Assembly (NCBI GenBank): GCA_025353925.1
Contig: JANXNV010000242.1
Span: 1 to 39,779 of the forward strand
From: Armatimonadota bacterium
Lineage (GTDB): Bacteria; Armatimonadota; Armatimonadia; Armatimonadales; Capsulimonadaceae
Length of the DNA stretch: 39,779 bases
Reading direction: 5' to 3'
Part shown: piece by piece, positions 14,051 through 28,204 of the stretch
How the letters are laid out: each line of letters opens with the position of its first letter
How positions within the stretch are numbered: the first letter of the stretch is position 1
The notes under the pieces: generated by a model
What the model was told of the DNA's origin: nothing
The model's input: the letters and a program-made list of their open reading frames with translations, nothing else
The model's database searches: none
Program-made: the position numbers and the translations under genes

Positions 14051-15271
14051 ATGACGACTCGCGCGTACGCGGTGCTGGGGACGGACCCGAAACAGGTCGC
14101 CGCGCCTGAGACGGTCGAAGAGGCGCAGGCTGTGATCCGTGCCGCACCGGGAGCGGCCGTGGCACCGTGGGGAGGCGGAACGCGTCAGGCCCTCGGCTAT
14201 CCGCTGACTCGTTACGACCTGGCTCTTTCGACCGCGAAGCTGACAGCTATCACAGAATACGTGCCCGCCGACCTGACCGTCACCGTGCAGGCCGGGATGA
14301 CTATAGCGCAGCTCCAAAGGGTGCTTGCACTGCATGGACAGGCTCTGCCGCTCGAAGTCGCCCTTCCGGAGCAGCAGACCCTGGGCGGCGTGATCGCGGC
14401 CCGCGCGGACAGTCTGACCCGTTTTGCACGAGGCAGCGTGCGTGACTGCCTGCTGGGAGTCACCGTGATCAATGCCCGAGGCGAAGTGGTCAAAGGCGGC
14501 GGGAAAGTCGTGAAAAATGTGGCGGGTTACGATCTGCCAAAGCTCTACTGCGGCTCACTGGGGACGCTGGGGCTGATTGTGGAAGCGACCTTTAAAGTCG
14601 CCCCGTTGTCCGAGACTTCAGCGACGGCCCTTCTGCCGCTGGCTGCGGATTTCAATACCGAGGACGTACTGGACGCTTTGCTTGGCTCGGATCTCTTGCC
14701 GACGTTCTTGTTTTTACTTAACCCGGAAGCCGCCCGCGCCGTCGTGCCGGAGGCTGAACCGGTGCAATACGTCGCTGTCGGCCTGGACGGAAACGCCGAA
14801 GCGGTCGCCTGGCAATTGAAAACGCTGGGTGCGGACGCACTCGATACGGATACCGCGCAGATCGTACGCGCTCGCTTGCGGGATTTTGGCCCAGACGCCG
14901 CCCCGATGACGGCCGCGTTCCATGTTCTTTCGTCGCAGGTGGGCGCCTTCTCGCGGATGGTGGAATGGACCGCTCGCCGTGCCGGGTTTAATGCCTCGGT
15001 CGCCTCGGATGCCGCCCTGGGCCTGATGACCGCGCATTTTACGCCTGTTCGGACGGACGCTGACTGGTCGGCGTTCTATGTGGATTTGAAGGCCAAAGCG
15101 GACCGCTGCGGCGGCAGCTTTCGGATCGAGCGGATGCCGCAGGTGCTGCGGGAGCTGGATACGCCGGTGTGGTCGCCGGTCCTGCCCGATTTTCGCCTCA
15201 TGGCGCGGCTAAAAGAGCAGCTTGACCCGGGACGCATATGGAATCCTGGGCGTTTTGTGGGGCGATTGTAG
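14051..15271 (+). CDS. glcE: Glycolate oxidase FAD-binding subunit GlcE
   Basis: GlcE is the second flavin-domain subunit of the GlcDEF glycolate dehydrogenase, which oxidises glycolate to glyoxylate and passes electrons to the respiratory chain. The 406-residue protein has the PCMH-type FAD domain: VAPWGGGTRQALG (pyrophosphate loop), PADLTVTVQAGMT, EQQTLGGVIAARADS, the strongly conserved GSVRDCLLGVTVINARGEVV and GGKVVKNVAGYDL...GSLGTLGLIVEATFKV. The C-terminal end has DPGRIWNPGRF, as in other GlcD/GlcE proteins. The ATG at 14051 is chosen because a possible upstream TTG (14015) is part of the promoter's -35 box. glcF follows, but is separated by a toxin-like gene and a second small gene. glcD is not in the window. 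Confidence 0.92.
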   Translation: MTTRAYAVLGTDPKQVAAPETVEEAQAVIRAAPGAAVAPWGGGTRQALGYPLTRYDLALSTAKLTAITEYVPADLTVTVQAGMTIAQLQRVLALHGQALPLEVALPEQQTLGGVIAARADSLTRFARGSVRDCLLGVTVINARGEVVKGGGKVVKNVAGYDLPKLYCGSLGTLGLIVEATFKVAPLSETSATALLPLAADFNTEDVLDALLGSDLLPTFLFLLNPEAARAVVPEAEPVQYVAVGLDGNAEAVAWQLKTLGADALDTDTAQIVRARLRDFGPDAAPMTAAFHVLSSQVGAFSRMVEWTARRAGFNASVASDAALGLMTAHFTPVRTDADWSAFYVDLKAKADRCGGSFRIERMPQVLRELDTPVWSPVLPDFRLMARLKEQLDPGRIWNPGRFVGRL

Positions 15272-15298
15272 GAAAAGCCTGCTTATGGATGAGAAATC

Positions 15299-15529
15299 TT
15301 GAATATACTCAGTCCGAATCAGATGCAGAAGGCCGTAGAGCGCGGAAAAGCACCAGGCGGTATCGCGCGAATTGACCGGGGCAATCCTGATTTGTGGGAG
15401 CAGCCGCATGTTCATTTCGAGGATGGCACCGCCTTAAACAAAGATGGGACGTGGAAACATGGAAACACTCACCTTACCGAAGATCAAAAAAAATGGCTCC
15501 AGGAATGTGGATGGATATTACCCGAGTGA
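15299..15529 (+). CDS. Orphan polymorphic-toxin C-terminal domain (colicin E3/CdiA-CT-like, putative RNase)
   Basis: The 76-residue product starts at TTG with GGATGAG 5 nt upstream; an in-frame stop at 15290-15292 rules out a longer protein. Its pattern AVERGKAPGGIARIDRGN, EQPHVHFEDGTALNKDGTW KHG, LTEDQKKWLQECGW is that of small toxin domains found at the C-termini of contact-dependent and other polymorphic toxins; I place it closest to the Ntox21 (colicin E3-like, 16S rRNA-cleaving) group from memory, unconfirmed. Candidate catalytic residues are the His, Asp and Lys of this central segment. It has no delivery domain or signal. The gene overlaps the next one by 71 nt in another frame. An alternative ATG is at 15323. 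Confidence 0.65.
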   Translation: MNILSPNQMQKAVERGKAPGGIARIDRGNPDLWEQPHVHFEDGTALNKDGTWKHGNTHLTEDQKKWLQECGWILPE

Positions 15530-16049
15530 TCCTTCTGAGCAAAAAGTGGTCGAATGGATCAAATACGTCTTGCTGACCCGGCATGATCCGCCGCTCAGCA
15601 AGCCCTGGACGATTCATCTTGATCAACTCATCGGGACACCGACAAATCGGGAAGAGGTTGCCGCCGTATCTTTTCATTCCTTTCAAATTCTCGTTGAGCA
15701 GATGGAAGCAATGGGGATATCGGACAGTATGATGCCTTCCCTTTATATTCCATTGGTTTGCGCTGAGACTTTAGACATTTGTCATATGGACCGGAGGACG
15801 CTGGTTCCGCAAATCGATTATAATGAGCCGCCCAGCCTGTATCTCACGGATCGTACGCTTCAAACTTTAATGCGGCCCATCGAACGCTACGTTTTCCCTC
15901 TACGGGCGACGGAGTTCTTGGAAACCTCTCGGGATATTTTTGTTTACTACACAGCCACGCGCAGCTTGGAGGACATCGAACACGGATGGGAATACGGCAG
16001 AAGCATCGTTGCCGAATATTATCCGCCTACCTACCAGAACTTGTCATGA
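15459..16049 (+). CDS. Putative immunity protein for the small toxin
   Basis: The 196-residue protein (201 if the ATG at 15444 is used) is acidic, soluble and of a family I do not recognise. It starts inside the toxin-like gene in a different frame and ends with TGA overlapping the glcF start as ATGA. Position directly downstream of and overlapping a toxin domain is the classic place of an immunity gene; that is the only basis for the call. A GTG at 15546 is a start that would avoid most dual coding. The sequence is clearly less GC-rich than glcE and glcF, and has more ATT, TTT and CAT codons, suggesting horizontal transfer. No motif, membrane segment or signal peptide is visible. Confidence 0.55.
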   Translation: METLTLPKIKKNGSRNVDGYYPSDPSEQKVVEWIKYVLLTRHDPPLSKPWTIHLDQLIGTPTNREEVAAVSFHSFQILVEQMEAMGISDSMMPSLYIPLVCAETLDICHMDRRTLVPQIDYNEPPSLYLTDRTLQTLMRPIERYVFPLRATEFLETSRDIFVYYTATRSLEDIEHGWEYGRSIVAEYYPPTYQNLS

Positions 16050-17329
16050 CCATCTCGCAGCATGAAAAAGATTTGATGTCTTGTGTTCACTGCGGCCTGT
16101 GCCTGCCCGCCTGTCCAACTTATCTGGAGACGGGGAGCGAGGCCGACAGCCCGCGTGGGCGGCTGGTGCTGATGCGCAAGCTGCACGAAGGAACGCTTTC
16201 CCCGCAGGACGCCGATGTGACCCGGCATTTGGACCTCTGCCTCGGATGCAGAGCCTGCGAGACGGCCTGCCCCTCCGGGGTGCCGTATGGCCGCATCCTG
16301 GAAACGGCCCGGGAACGGATCAACGCAGCAGATGTCCGGCCAAAAACCGCCGCTTTGTCCCGCTGGGGTCTGCTGGAAACGCTGACCCACCCAAAACTGA
16401 TGACCGCCGCCCTCACAGCGACGCAAATGGTGACGGGCGGCAATGTCCCCGCACCGGCCATTCGCCTGCTATCCGGTGATCCCGCGGCACGAGGACAGTC
16501 CGTAAATCTGCCGGAAACGCTCTCGCCGCCGTTGCCGCCGACAGTTACGCCCGCCGCTGGCATCAAACGTGCCCGTGTGGGCGTTCTGACCGGCTGCGCG
16601 ATGCGGGTGCTGTTTGGGGATGTGAATTCGGACACGGTGCGTGTTCTCGCCGCCAATGGGTGTGAGGTGCTGGTCAATCGGCGTCAGGGCTGCTGCGGGG
16701 CACTGCACGCGCACAACGGCTCCATAGCTCAGGCTCAGGCCATGGCACGGGACCTCATCGACGCCTTCTCGCCGTTTGACGGCCTGGACGCGATTATCGT
16801 CAACTCGGCGGGCTGCGGCAGTCTGATGAAAGAATACGGGCAGCTCCTGGCGGGCGACGAAACCTATGCGCTGAAGGCGGAATCGTTCGCCGCGAAAGTA
16901 CGTGATGTCAGTGAGTGGCTGGATGAACTCGGCTGGGTCGCGCCGCTCAAAGAGGCACCCGGTAAAGAGTCGCCCGGAACACCCGTGACCATGACCTACC
17001 ACGATGCCTGTCACCTGGCACACGGACAGCAGATTCGGGAGGCCCCGCGTTCCCTCCTAGCCCTTCTGCCGAATGTTCGCTGGGTGGAGCTGGCCGAAAG
17101 CGAAGTCTGCTGCGGCTCGGCGGGTATCTACAATCTGACCCAGCCGGAAATGGCCCGCCGCCTGCAGGGGCGCAAGCTGGAAAATATTCTCGCGACCGAG
17201 GCCACGGTTGTAGCCACCGGCAACCCCGGCTGTCTGGCCTGGATCGCGGCAGGACTGAAGGAGCGCGGTCTGCCGGATGTCCGCGTCGTGCATCCGGTGA
17301 CACTGCTGGCGGAGGCTTTGGATAGTTAA
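16046..17329 (+). CDS. glcF: Glycolate oxidase iron-sulfur subunit GlcF
   Basis: GlcF carries electrons from the flavin subunits of glycolate dehydrogenase to the membrane quinone pool. The 427-residue protein has two 4Fe-4S clusters: CVHCGLCLPACP (Cys 13, 16, 19, 23) and CLGCRACETACP about 52 residues later. The C-terminal half has the two CCG domains of the heterodisulfide-reductase/GlcF type: QGCCGALHAHNG and EVCCGSAGIYNL, with the segment YHDACHLAHGQ. The ATG at 16046 overlaps the previous stop (ATGA), so translation is probably coupled to the putative immunity gene, not directly to glcE. gmhA follows after 3 nt. Confidence 0.93.
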   Translation: MTISQHEKDLMSCVHCGLCLPACPTYLETGSEADSPRGRLVLMRKLHEGTLSPQDADVTRHLDLCLGCRACETACPSGVPYGRILETARERINAADVRPKTAALSRWGLLETLTHPKLMTAALTATQMVTGGNVPAPAIRLLSGDPAARGQSVNLPETLSPPLPPTVTPAAGIKRARVGVLTGCAMRVLFGDVNSDTVRVLAANGCEVLVNRRQGCCGALHAHNGSIAQAQAMARDLIDAFSPFDGLDAIIVNSAGCGSLMKEYGQLLAGDETYALKAESFAAKVRDVSEWLDELGWVAPLKEAPGKESPGTPVTMTYHDACHLAHGQQIREAPRSLLALLPNVRWVELAESEVCCGSAGIYNLTQPEMARRLQGRKLENILATEATVVATGNPGCLAWIAAGLKERGLPDVRVVHPVTLLAEALDS

Positions 17330-26806: not shown

Positions 26807-26859
26807 ACCGCCCACATGCTATACTAATTCTGCATAGATTAGTATGGAATTAGTATGGA
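26796..26859 (+). promoter_or_regulatory. Promoter and operator-like repeats of the Fic gene
   Basis: TTGGGA (26796-26801), an 18-bp spacer and TATACT (26820-26825) form a promoter that begins inside the mnmE end. TACTAAT (26822-26828) is an inverted copy of ATTAGTA at 26838-26844. A perfect 11-nt tandem repeat (26838-26848 and 26849-26859) follows, so three half-sites cover the -10, the start site and the leader, including GGAGG at 26857-26861. Confidence 0.65.
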
Positions 26860-26869
26860 GGCTGCACAC

Positions 26870-28204
26870 ATGTCGATAAAGTTCCCAAAGACACCTCCCA
26901 CTCTGGAGCTGCTGCTCCAAAAAATCGATCGGACTAGGCTCGGACAAATCCTGTTGACATTCGGCTCAGTTTATGCTGACAAAAAATATCACCACTGGAA
27001 CGACTTAATTCATTTTTCACCGCCGGGCGATCTCACACAAGAGGAATGGTGGGCAGGCATAAAAATTGCGCGTACTGCCCTGTATCAATCAGTTCCTTTG
27101 CGCGATAGTAAGCAGAACCCCTTCCAATTCCTTGTGAATGAGACCGCGATGGAGCAGCTTCATCAAATTGATTTGGGAGCAGGTGGAAATATCGGTGTTC
27201 CTGGTCCCATTCTGAATCCCGAGACGAGAGATCAGTATTATGTCTCTTCACTGCTCGAAGAAGCGATTACCTCTAGTCAGCTTGAAGGAGCGACAACAAC
27301 CCGTGAGGTCGCCAAAGACATGATTCGGACTGCGCGACCGCCACAGGACCGCAGTGAGCGCATGATCCTCAATAGTTACCGAACGATGCAGCACATCGGA
27401 AGACTAAAACGGCAGCCACTCACGAAAGAGTTGATATTTGAGCTGCATCGCCTCGTGACGGAAGAAACGCTGGATAAGCCTGATGCGGCGGGCCGTCTCC
27501 GGGGTGCGGATGAAGAAATAGTCGTTCAGGATGTCGAAGGCCGGGTCCTGCATACTCCTCCTCCATTTTATGAGCTGGACGCGCGTATGGCTGCCCTCTG
27601 CGATTTTGCAAATGGGACAGCAGAGGGCGGGTTTGTTCATCCTGTGCTGCGCTCAATGATTTTGCATTTTTGGCTGGCGTATGATCATCCCTTCGTTGAT
27701 GGCAATGGGAGAACAGCGAGGGCACTTTTTTACTGGTCTATGCTGCATCGTGGCTACTGGCTTTGTGAGTTTGTCTCTATCTCTCGCATCATTCTCCAGG
27801 CACGCGTGAAATACAGCAAAGCTTTTTTGTATACGCAGACAGACGGAAATGACTTGACCTACTTTCTGCTGTATCATATCGAAGTGCTGCGGCGTGCCCT
27901 AGAAGAGTTGCACCGCTACATCGAAAAACGTGCCTTGGAACTGGAGATCGCCGAGAGAAACCTGCAGGGGATGGCGGCTTTCAATCACCGACAGCGCACA
28001 CTTCTCAGTCACGCGCTGCGACACCCCAATCACCGCTACACCATTGAGGGGCACCGTTTGAGTCACAAGGTTGTTTACCAAACTGCGCGAGTTGACCTGC
28101 GGCAGATTGCAGAAAGTGGTTTGTTCGAGTCGAAAAAGCAGGGGCAGACCTGGTACTTCATGCCCCTGCCGAATCTTGAGGCACTCCTGGCGACTCCTCG
28201 GTAG
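26870..28204 (+). CDS. Fic family protein with inhibitory motif and C-terminal winged helix
   Basis: Fic proteins transfer AMP (or other groups) from nucleotides to protein hydroxyls. The 444-residue protein has the full motif HPFVDGNGRTAR at residues 273-284 (catalytic His273). An N-terminal segment SSQLEG at 135-140 fits the inhibitory (S/T)xxxE(G/N) helix that blocks ATP binding in autoinhibited (class II) Fic proteins, so it probably needs no separate antitoxin. The last 80 residues (VYQTARVDLRQIAESGLF) have the look of a winged-helix DNA-binding domain. ATG 26870 is preferred over 26855, since GGAGG (26857-26861) lies between them. GC is lower than in the neighbours. The 3' end overlaps the convergent dipeptidase gene by 47 bp. 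Confidence 0.9.
   Translation: MSIKFPKTPPTLELLLQKIDRTRLGQILLTFGSVYADKKYHHWNDLIHFSPPGDLTQEEWWAGIKIARTALYQSVPLRDSKQNPFQFLVNETAMEQLHQIDLGAGGNIGVPGPILNPETRDQYYVSSLLEEAITSSQLEGATTTREVAKDMIRTARPPQDRSERMILNSYRTMQHIGRLKRQPLTKELIFELHRLVTEETLDKPDAAGRLRGADEEIVVQDVEGRVLHTPPPFYELDARMAALCDFANGTAEGGFVHPVLRSMILHFWLAYDHPFVDGNGRTARALFYWSMLHRGYWLCEFVSISRIILQARVKYSKAFLYTQTDGNDLTYFLLYHIEVLRRALEELHRYIEKRALELEIAERNLQGMAAFNHRQRTLLSHALRHPNHRYTIEGHRLSHKVVYQTARVDLRQIAESGLFESKKQGQTWYFMPLPNLEALLATPR

Follow-up and report, generated by a model that had tools for sequence, protein, structure and literature searches.

A candidate orphan toxin-immunity cassette at the glcE-glcF junction of an Armatimonadota oxidase operon

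We report here on a 39,779-nucleotide stretch of DNA from an Armatimonadota bacterium (called the window below), in which two short genes lie between the genes of two oxidase subunits. In our best explanation, to which we assign a probability of roughly 0.6, these two genes form an orphan cassette of toxin and immunity gene. It would belong to a polymorphic-toxin family for which no Pfam or NCBIfam model was found, and it would reside within the operon in the manner of a toxin-antitoxin module. Judged by sequence comparison, the first gene encodes a domain with homologues among the C-terminal tips of large RHS and hemagglutinin-repeat proteins, the layout seen in polymorphic toxins. On the same kind of evidence, the second encodes a homologue of the protein whose gene follows several of these tips, i.e., an immunity-type partner. 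The initial annotation of the window had proposed a transferred toxin/immunity cassette between glcE and glcF. The tip homology and the empty site found in relatives speak for that proposal, but the toxin could not be assigned to any named Pfam family.

Locus layout and insertion site

The features of the locus are collected in Table 1. On re-reading the sequence, we recovered the layout as first noted, including the coordinates, the in-frame TGA (15290-15292) that closes the toxin frame upstream, the ATGA, and the 71-nt overlap with the toxin ORF that results when the second gene is read as 196 residues from ATG 15459 to the stop at 16049. A longer in-frame ORF of the second gene has 201 residues and begins at ATG 15444, and the glcE-like gene ends with TAG at 15269-15271. 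The lower GC content of both inserted genes is likewise confirmed, with 0.50 for the toxin and 0.49 for the second gene as compared to 0.64 in both flanking genes; the corresponding GC3 values are 0.51 and 0.55, vs 0.72 in the flanks.

Table 1. Features of the cassette and its surroundings (positions in the window)
Feature	Position	Strand	Basis
glcE-like FAD-binding subunit gene, upstream flank	14051..15271	+	PF01565 E 1.3e-25; NF008439 GlcE 162 bits
Insert, 778 bp vs empty site of G024/G022	15268..16045	+	junction comparison
Candidate 5-codon mini-cistron, TGA overlapping toxin TTG as TTGA; speculative	15285..15302	+	sequence
Toxin-type domain, standalone, 76 aa, TTG start at domain boundary	15299..15529	+	family alignment/profile; pLDDT 94.8
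Immunity-type gene, probably 180 aa from GTG; other possible starts ATG 15459, ATG 15444	15507..16049	+	relatives' starts, model, profile
ATGA, immunity stop over glcF-like start	16046..16049	+	sequence, junction comparison
glcF-like iron-sulfur subunit gene, downstream flank	16046..17329	+	PF02754 E 2.1e-31; NF008434 GlcF 298 bits

The flanking proteins contain FAD-binding and CCG/iron-sulfur domains (Pfam). Their earlier description as products of glycolate oxidase genes is thus right at the level of GlcE/GlcF-like domains, but it does not extend to the equivalog level, where GlcE reaches 162 of the 284 bits required by NCBIfam and GlcF 298 of 333. Because both scores fall under these cut-offs, the enzyme can be called glycolate-oxidase-like at most, glycolate not being established as its substrate. 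Elsewhere in the window, an ORF at 26855-28204 contains the peptide HPFVDGNGR, which we take to resemble the Fic-domain motif.

The edges of the insert can be placed by comparison with two related genomes, G024 and G022, in which glcE and glcF share an ATGA that serves as stop of the one and start of the other, with zero spacer. G024 belongs to the same genus as the window, and its GlcE and GlcF are 81% and 84% identical to those considered here. The junction in the window corresponds to the G024/G022 junction split after ...CGATT. At the left edge, 'G TAG' restores the final leucine and the stop of glcE, and at the right edge ...TTGTC abuts the ATGA, which means that the immunity stop takes the bases that would otherwise form the glcE stop. 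It is this split, with both gene ends restored, that defines the extent of the insert in Table 1. A comparison of the glcE-glcF spacing in related genomes had been suggested, and it gives a clear difference, with a 0-nt spacer in G024 and G022 vs the 778-bp insert in the window. Neither a target-site duplication nor inverted repeats could be recognized convincingly at the insert edges. The premise that glcE and glcF are normally adjacent holds for G024 and G022, with their ATGA overlap, but not universally: at 29 further glcF loci in relatives, a GlcE match is present within ~1.5 kb upstream in 13, and there is none in 16.

Other DNA occupies the same junction in further relatives. The spacers of G021 (218 bp; L030 2761-2978) and G023 (166 bp; L031 2776-2941) have stops that close all frames, and they fold as long hairpins. 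Both are repeated in their own genomes, with at least 93 matches, counted over both orientations, for G021 (40 of 175 candidates scored) and at least 66 for G023 (40 of 148 candidates scored, with a query one base longer), and they resemble REP- or MITE-like elements. A spacer is also present at the glcE-glcF junction of G010. Since G021, which has a spacer, and G022, which has the empty site, are of the same genus, the junction changes within a genus.

The toxin domain, on the other hand, was not encountered again among close relatives. Its profile is found in one of 291 phylum genomes, namely the window's own, and in one of seven in the family, with the best 19 candidates or fewer scored per genome. 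Conservation of the pair across the phylum, which would have pointed to a metabolic role, is thus not observed in the other 290 genomes at this depth of scoring. A wider search of 398 genomes of G299's phylum returned G299 alone. The best reading of the locus is that the cassette was acquired horizontally, as an orphan toxin-immunity pair at the glcE-glcF junction.

The initial annotation had also stated that there is no delivery module, and we concur: the flanks are glcE-like and glcF-like, and no match to RHS_repeat was obtained in the window's own genome, in a search whose control was positive in 2 of 14 cases. A TPS search of the same genome was empty, as were all of its controls. The genome is a draft of 312 contigs, with 94% completeness and 4.4% contamination.

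The toxin-type domain and its partner

In a leave-one-out test, the toxin ORF of the window matches the family profile with an E value of 1.7e-30, while the best of 2600 shuffled proteins reaches 0.17. Across the 13 toxin members the values range from 1.4e-19 to 1.9e-34, with the best shuffled proteins at 0.095-0.48. The relatives were found by scanning 84,980 species genomes, with 13 loci confirmed out of 67 pattern matches; as the scan requires exact peptide patterns, this number is a lower bound. According to the record titles, they span eight phyla and belong to Micromonosporaceae, Fibrobacter, Candidatus Aquarickettsia, Myxococcota, Planctomycetales, Bacteroidales, Bacteroidia, Campylobacter, Sporomusa, Pelosinus, an alphaproteobacterium, Clostridium and Anaerosolibacter. 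In addition, a 48.6%-identical stretch on a plasmid of Candidatus Bandiella woodruffii is the extreme C-terminus of a hemagglutinin repeat-containing protein.

The alignment consists of the window and 12 of the 13 relatives, L021 (2936-3153, a Campylobacter sp. MAG) having been dropped because its toxin-domain reading frame is broken. Ten columns are invariant among these 13 sequences (H37, V38, H39, F40, L46, N47, G50, T51, L67 and W72), and the toxin of the window retains them all. Ten of the upstream proteins were scanned against Pfam, i.e., all except those of L019, L020 and L021, with L014 and L023 represented by their last 1500 residues alone. Delivery architecture is present in five of the ten, and none was recognized in the other five. 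The five consist of RHS with PT-HINT (L014), RHS (L015 and L017) and hemagglutinin repeat (L016 and L023), and they fall in five phyla by record title. Because the protein in the window begins at the domain boundary, it can be described as a naked tip.

The description of the 76-residue protein as a toxin-like domain of polymorphic toxins is therefore upheld by its homology to RHS and hemagglutinin-repeat tips, but not by membership of Ntox21, Ntox24 or another Pfam toxin family. The Pfam check against Ntox21, Ntox24 and their relatives gave no match at E<=1, and the same threshold returned no family at all from Pfam, NCBIfam or PADLOC for the window protein. When the 13 aligned members were compared with Pfam, the only families to appear were DUF4224, T3SS_HrpK1, Lsr2_DNA-bd and SEP, none of them a toxin family, with a best E value of 0.0085. 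Among PDB sequences, 7br0_A was considered (E 0.0066) and rejected, as its best stretch gives 0.29 alone and the match is gone with the family profile.

The structural model of the toxin has a pLDDT of 94.8 and is made up of one helix, four strands and one further helix. In a search of solved folds, the best Foldseek E value was 1.3 and the best VIA Z score 2.9, a missing match that excludes no fold. The same applies to the BECR fold (Barnase/EndoU/colicin/RelE), with no Foldseek match at E<=0.001 and the same best Z score of 2.9. We regard the protein as a small alpha/beta toxin domain with an invariant HVHF...LN..GT core, probably a nuclease, a guess prompted by its conserved polar residues and histidines.

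The toxin had no match in viral contigs or phage records. Single-sequence matches in four other phylum genomes (E 4.3e-5 to 0.009) were discarded, since all have in-frame stops; none of the four genomes was recovered by the family profile (best 19 candidates or fewer scored per genome), and one of the matches, L004, seems to coincide partly with a long ORF of a different frame.

We now turn to the second gene. Its leave-one-out E value in the window is 1.1e-14, with 6.9 for the best of 2800 shuffled proteins, and the partner genes of L014, L015, L016, L017 and L024 give 8.9e-12 to 1.7e-20; the partner profile is thus strong in six of the nine set members, the window included. The L018 partner (E 1e-3) is intermediate between these strong members and the weak partners of L019 (0.073) and L020 (0.021), which are slightly better than their best shuffles (0.9 and 2.2, respectively). 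The partner gene on the Bandiella plasmid is also homologous to the second gene (E 2e-8).

In the relatives, the gene next to the toxin domain overlaps it, except in L018 and L021, where it follows close behind. Four Firmicutes loci (L022, L023, L025 and L026) have instead an unrelated gene of 86-87 residues after the toxin. Of the three such proteins scanned (that of L025 left out), two resemble Imm32, though below the threshold (0.011 and 0.014). The downstream gene of L021, which entered the immunity profile test as a non-member alone and was included in the Imm32 scan, differs again and has no match to the immunity family. We infer that such a variety of partners for a single toxin domain would be in keeping with immunity genes.

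Three branches of the family deserve a remark of their own. The Firmicutes loci may represent an exchange of partners beside one toxin domain. In L020 (7977-9171, a Bacteroidia MAG) the toxin is an 81-residue frame, and by eye there is no delivery part nearby; its partner of 322 residues, which matches the immunity profile weakly, gives the impression, by eye, of an immunity protein in duplicate. In L024 (5493-6399, an alphaproteobacterial MAG) the pair lies directly 3' of genes that by eye are recF-like and gyrB-like, and a signal-like, charged stretch takes the place of the toxin domain's N-terminal half.

The start of the second gene needs to be reconsidered. The partners of L016, L017, L020 and L024 begin with MDG within the toxin GW codons, with overlaps of 20-26 nt, and that of L019 overlaps the toxin by 23 nt. 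In the window, GTG 15507 opens an MDG-like kind of peptide, which yields 180 residues and a 23-nt overlap, and residues 1-22 of the 196-residue form are modelled with a pLDDT below 50. The 196 residues and 71-nt overlap given originally are correct as an ORF reading, but the start is probably better put at GTG 15507 than at ATG 15459. Such a start is the majority pattern and not a rule, because L014 and L015 lack an ATG exactly there and L018 has no overlap.

The immunity protein of the window has no Pfam match at E<=1 and, searched alone, no significant NCBIfam match. The whole family yielded one chance-level Pfam match (0.084), and no DNA-binding domain was recognized. Against PDB sequences the immunity profile reached 0.32 and 0.85 at best, and a fold search with the model found no known fold, although a missing match tells little in this case. 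PADLOC returned no match for the window proteins and weak ones in relatives, namely for the L015 immunity protein (0.02) and the 86-residue protein of L023 (0.0014). Matches on Komagataeibacter plasmids (E 0.01-0.03) were set aside, as the profile comparison gave no support. Single-sequence matches to the immunity protein occur in three other phylum genomes (E 1.2e-4 to 0.0047), two with in-frame stops and one (L011) without.

Expression and alternative explanations

In the mechanism that we favor, the cassette would be co-transcribed with the oxidase operon, and toxin and immunity protein would be translated in series from one transcript. The immunity protein would then bind and block the toxin, such that the pair, which has no delivery part, would act within the producing cell as toxin-antitoxin modules do, and retaining the operon would retain the immunity. 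Re-initiation after the immunity gene is proposed for the translation of glcF because there is no ribosome-binding site ahead of it: the site is undetectable, at +0.2 kcal/mol vs a random median of -2.6. The glcF of G024 also relies on ATGA coupling and has a weak site (-3.3), so dependence on an upstream gene is not a novelty of the insert.

Upstream of the toxin TTG, the anti-Shine-Dalgarno pairing is -3.1, near the random median of -2.6, and upstream of the mini-cistron it is -4.2, which equals the 25% quantile of random sites. One may speculate that the TTGA of the mini-cistron could couple toxin translation, with pairing energies not distinct from those of random sites. Between 13400 and 17400 there are four promoter-like sites, where 1.2 are expected. 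One is ahead of glcE (14015) and one in the immunity gene (15721, 9 of 12), and there is none at the cassette start. Terminator-like sites in the same range also number four, vs 3.6 expected, including a weak one within the toxin gene (15393).

What argues against the orphan-cassette explanation is that L021 and the four Firmicutes loci have another downstream gene, and that the L019 and L020 partners are weak. Further points against it are the toxin TTG with its near-random upstream pairing, the lack of a fold match that would indicate a catalytic class, the toxin-first order, and the ATGA coupling of glcF in G024; moreover, intact frames would say little about selection in a young insert. 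A more far-reaching proposal, that the cassette is an addiction lock on the oxidase operon, we consider doubtful. Here, translation in series would make glcF dependent on termination of the immunity gene, and disruption of the operon would expose the cell to its own toxin.

It is also conceivable that the second gene alone matters, as a captured immunity against a related toxin of neighbours, the toxin ORF being a scarcely translated remnant. The weak site at the toxin TTG and the missing RHS_repeat match are in line with this option, and the part of PMC4927057 used here proposes that orphan modules are retained for their immunity function. However, the toxin ORF extends in full to the domain boundary and has lost none of the 10 invariant columns, whereas pure capture would not need this ORF, and we find the option unlikely.

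Another scenario is a recent, neutral insertion without selected function, tolerated since the junction accepts foreign DNA and the flanking genes are intact. The repeat hairpins that G021 and G023 hold at this junction are compatible with it, as is the occurrence of the toxin profile in a single genome of the family and phylum samples (best 19 candidates or fewer scored in each). The intact coding frames and the precise restoration of the glcE end as well as the glcF end make it distinctly unlikely, with the reservation that intact frames say little on selection because the insertion may be recent.

That the toxin continues to reach neighbours through a delivery route unrecognized here is very improbable. 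Although RHS or hemagglutinin-repeat proteins carry several of the relatives as their tips, and parts may be missing from a 94% complete genome, the 76 residues equal the domain length and leave no room for a trafficking region, and the own genome has no RHS_repeat match. An assembly chimera is hardly credible either: the draft state in 312 contigs and the 4.4% contamination would allow for it, but two false joins would be needed, both exact to the gene ends at one natural junction. Finally, a metabolic accessory pair belonging to the oxidase, to which the position between the two subunit genes might point, can be dismissed, as the homologues include toxin tips and neighbours of tips, and as none of the 290 further phylum genomes matches the toxin profile (best 19 candidates or fewer scored in each), the relatives with glcF loci included.

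Comparison with known systems

The orphan-cassette explanation can be compared with three kinds of known systems. As in polymorphic toxins, the domain of the window pair is elsewhere the tip of a trafficking protein and is directly followed by a conserved immunity-type gene. Standalone toxin-immunity cassettes with toxin-first order are described in PMC3482391. In the part of that paper used here, the likeness lies in a C-terminal toxin domain common to RHS and hemagglutinin-repeat proteins, in the toxin gene coming first, and in the trafficking domains missing from the cassette. Those cassettes adjoin a full toxin locus, whereas that of the window lies between oxidase subunit genes, and neither Pfam nor NCBIfam showed a model for it.

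PMC4927057 describes cdi and rhs pairs that are orphans. In Salmonella, according to PMC7043789, one such rhs pair is made inside the cell, has a CTG start and acts as a type II toxin-antitoxin. In the portions of these two papers drawn on here, the orphan rhs-CT/rhsI and cdiA-CT/cdiI modules share with the window a toxin tip and an immunity gene with the delivery part missing. They differ in lying beside rhs genes or downstream of cdi genes, while the window genome has no RHS_repeat match and the pair adjoins no full-length rhs or cdiA, its flanks being glcE-like and glcF-like.

The initial annotation regarded the arrangement as undescribed. In our literature search, which covered titles and abstract starts and few subscription journals, a polymorphic toxin-immunity pair in a metabolic operon did not appear among the papers listed, which is no proof of its absence. 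The exact combination may thus be new, but its components are not, since orphan cassettes (PMC3482391, PMC7043789) and toxin-antitoxin pairs in operons (PMC7167474) have already been described, as far as the parts of these papers used here go. Residence in an operon junction is apparently unusual, with precedent, and the toxin/immunity family is apparently uncatalogued. The locus offers a short toxin-type domain of 76 residues, confidently modelled and with no curated family found, together with its partner, and both should be easy to express and to test. It also makes the retention of orphan toxin-immunity pairs testable in surroundings free of a neighbouring delivery gene that could blur the outcome.

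The closest parallel in location is provided by type II toxin-antitoxin pairs at operon junctions. The part of PMC7167474 used here describes pairs within operons (relA-mazEF-mazG and dinB-yafNO-yafP), and it places ccd between folA and apaH. Other strains have these operons uninterrupted, and REP sequences occur at the folA-apaH site. The likeness consists in the intercistronic insertion, the undisturbed relatives and the repeats at the site elsewhere, and here too related genomes carry repeat elements at the same junction. The window pair differs in its polymorphic-toxin ancestry, in a partner with no recognized DNA-binding domain, and in its order, with the toxin first, while in type II pairs the antitoxin is usually upstream. 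The comparison points to operon junctions as places where polymorphic-toxin cassettes, too, may settle in the manner of classical toxin-antitoxin modules.
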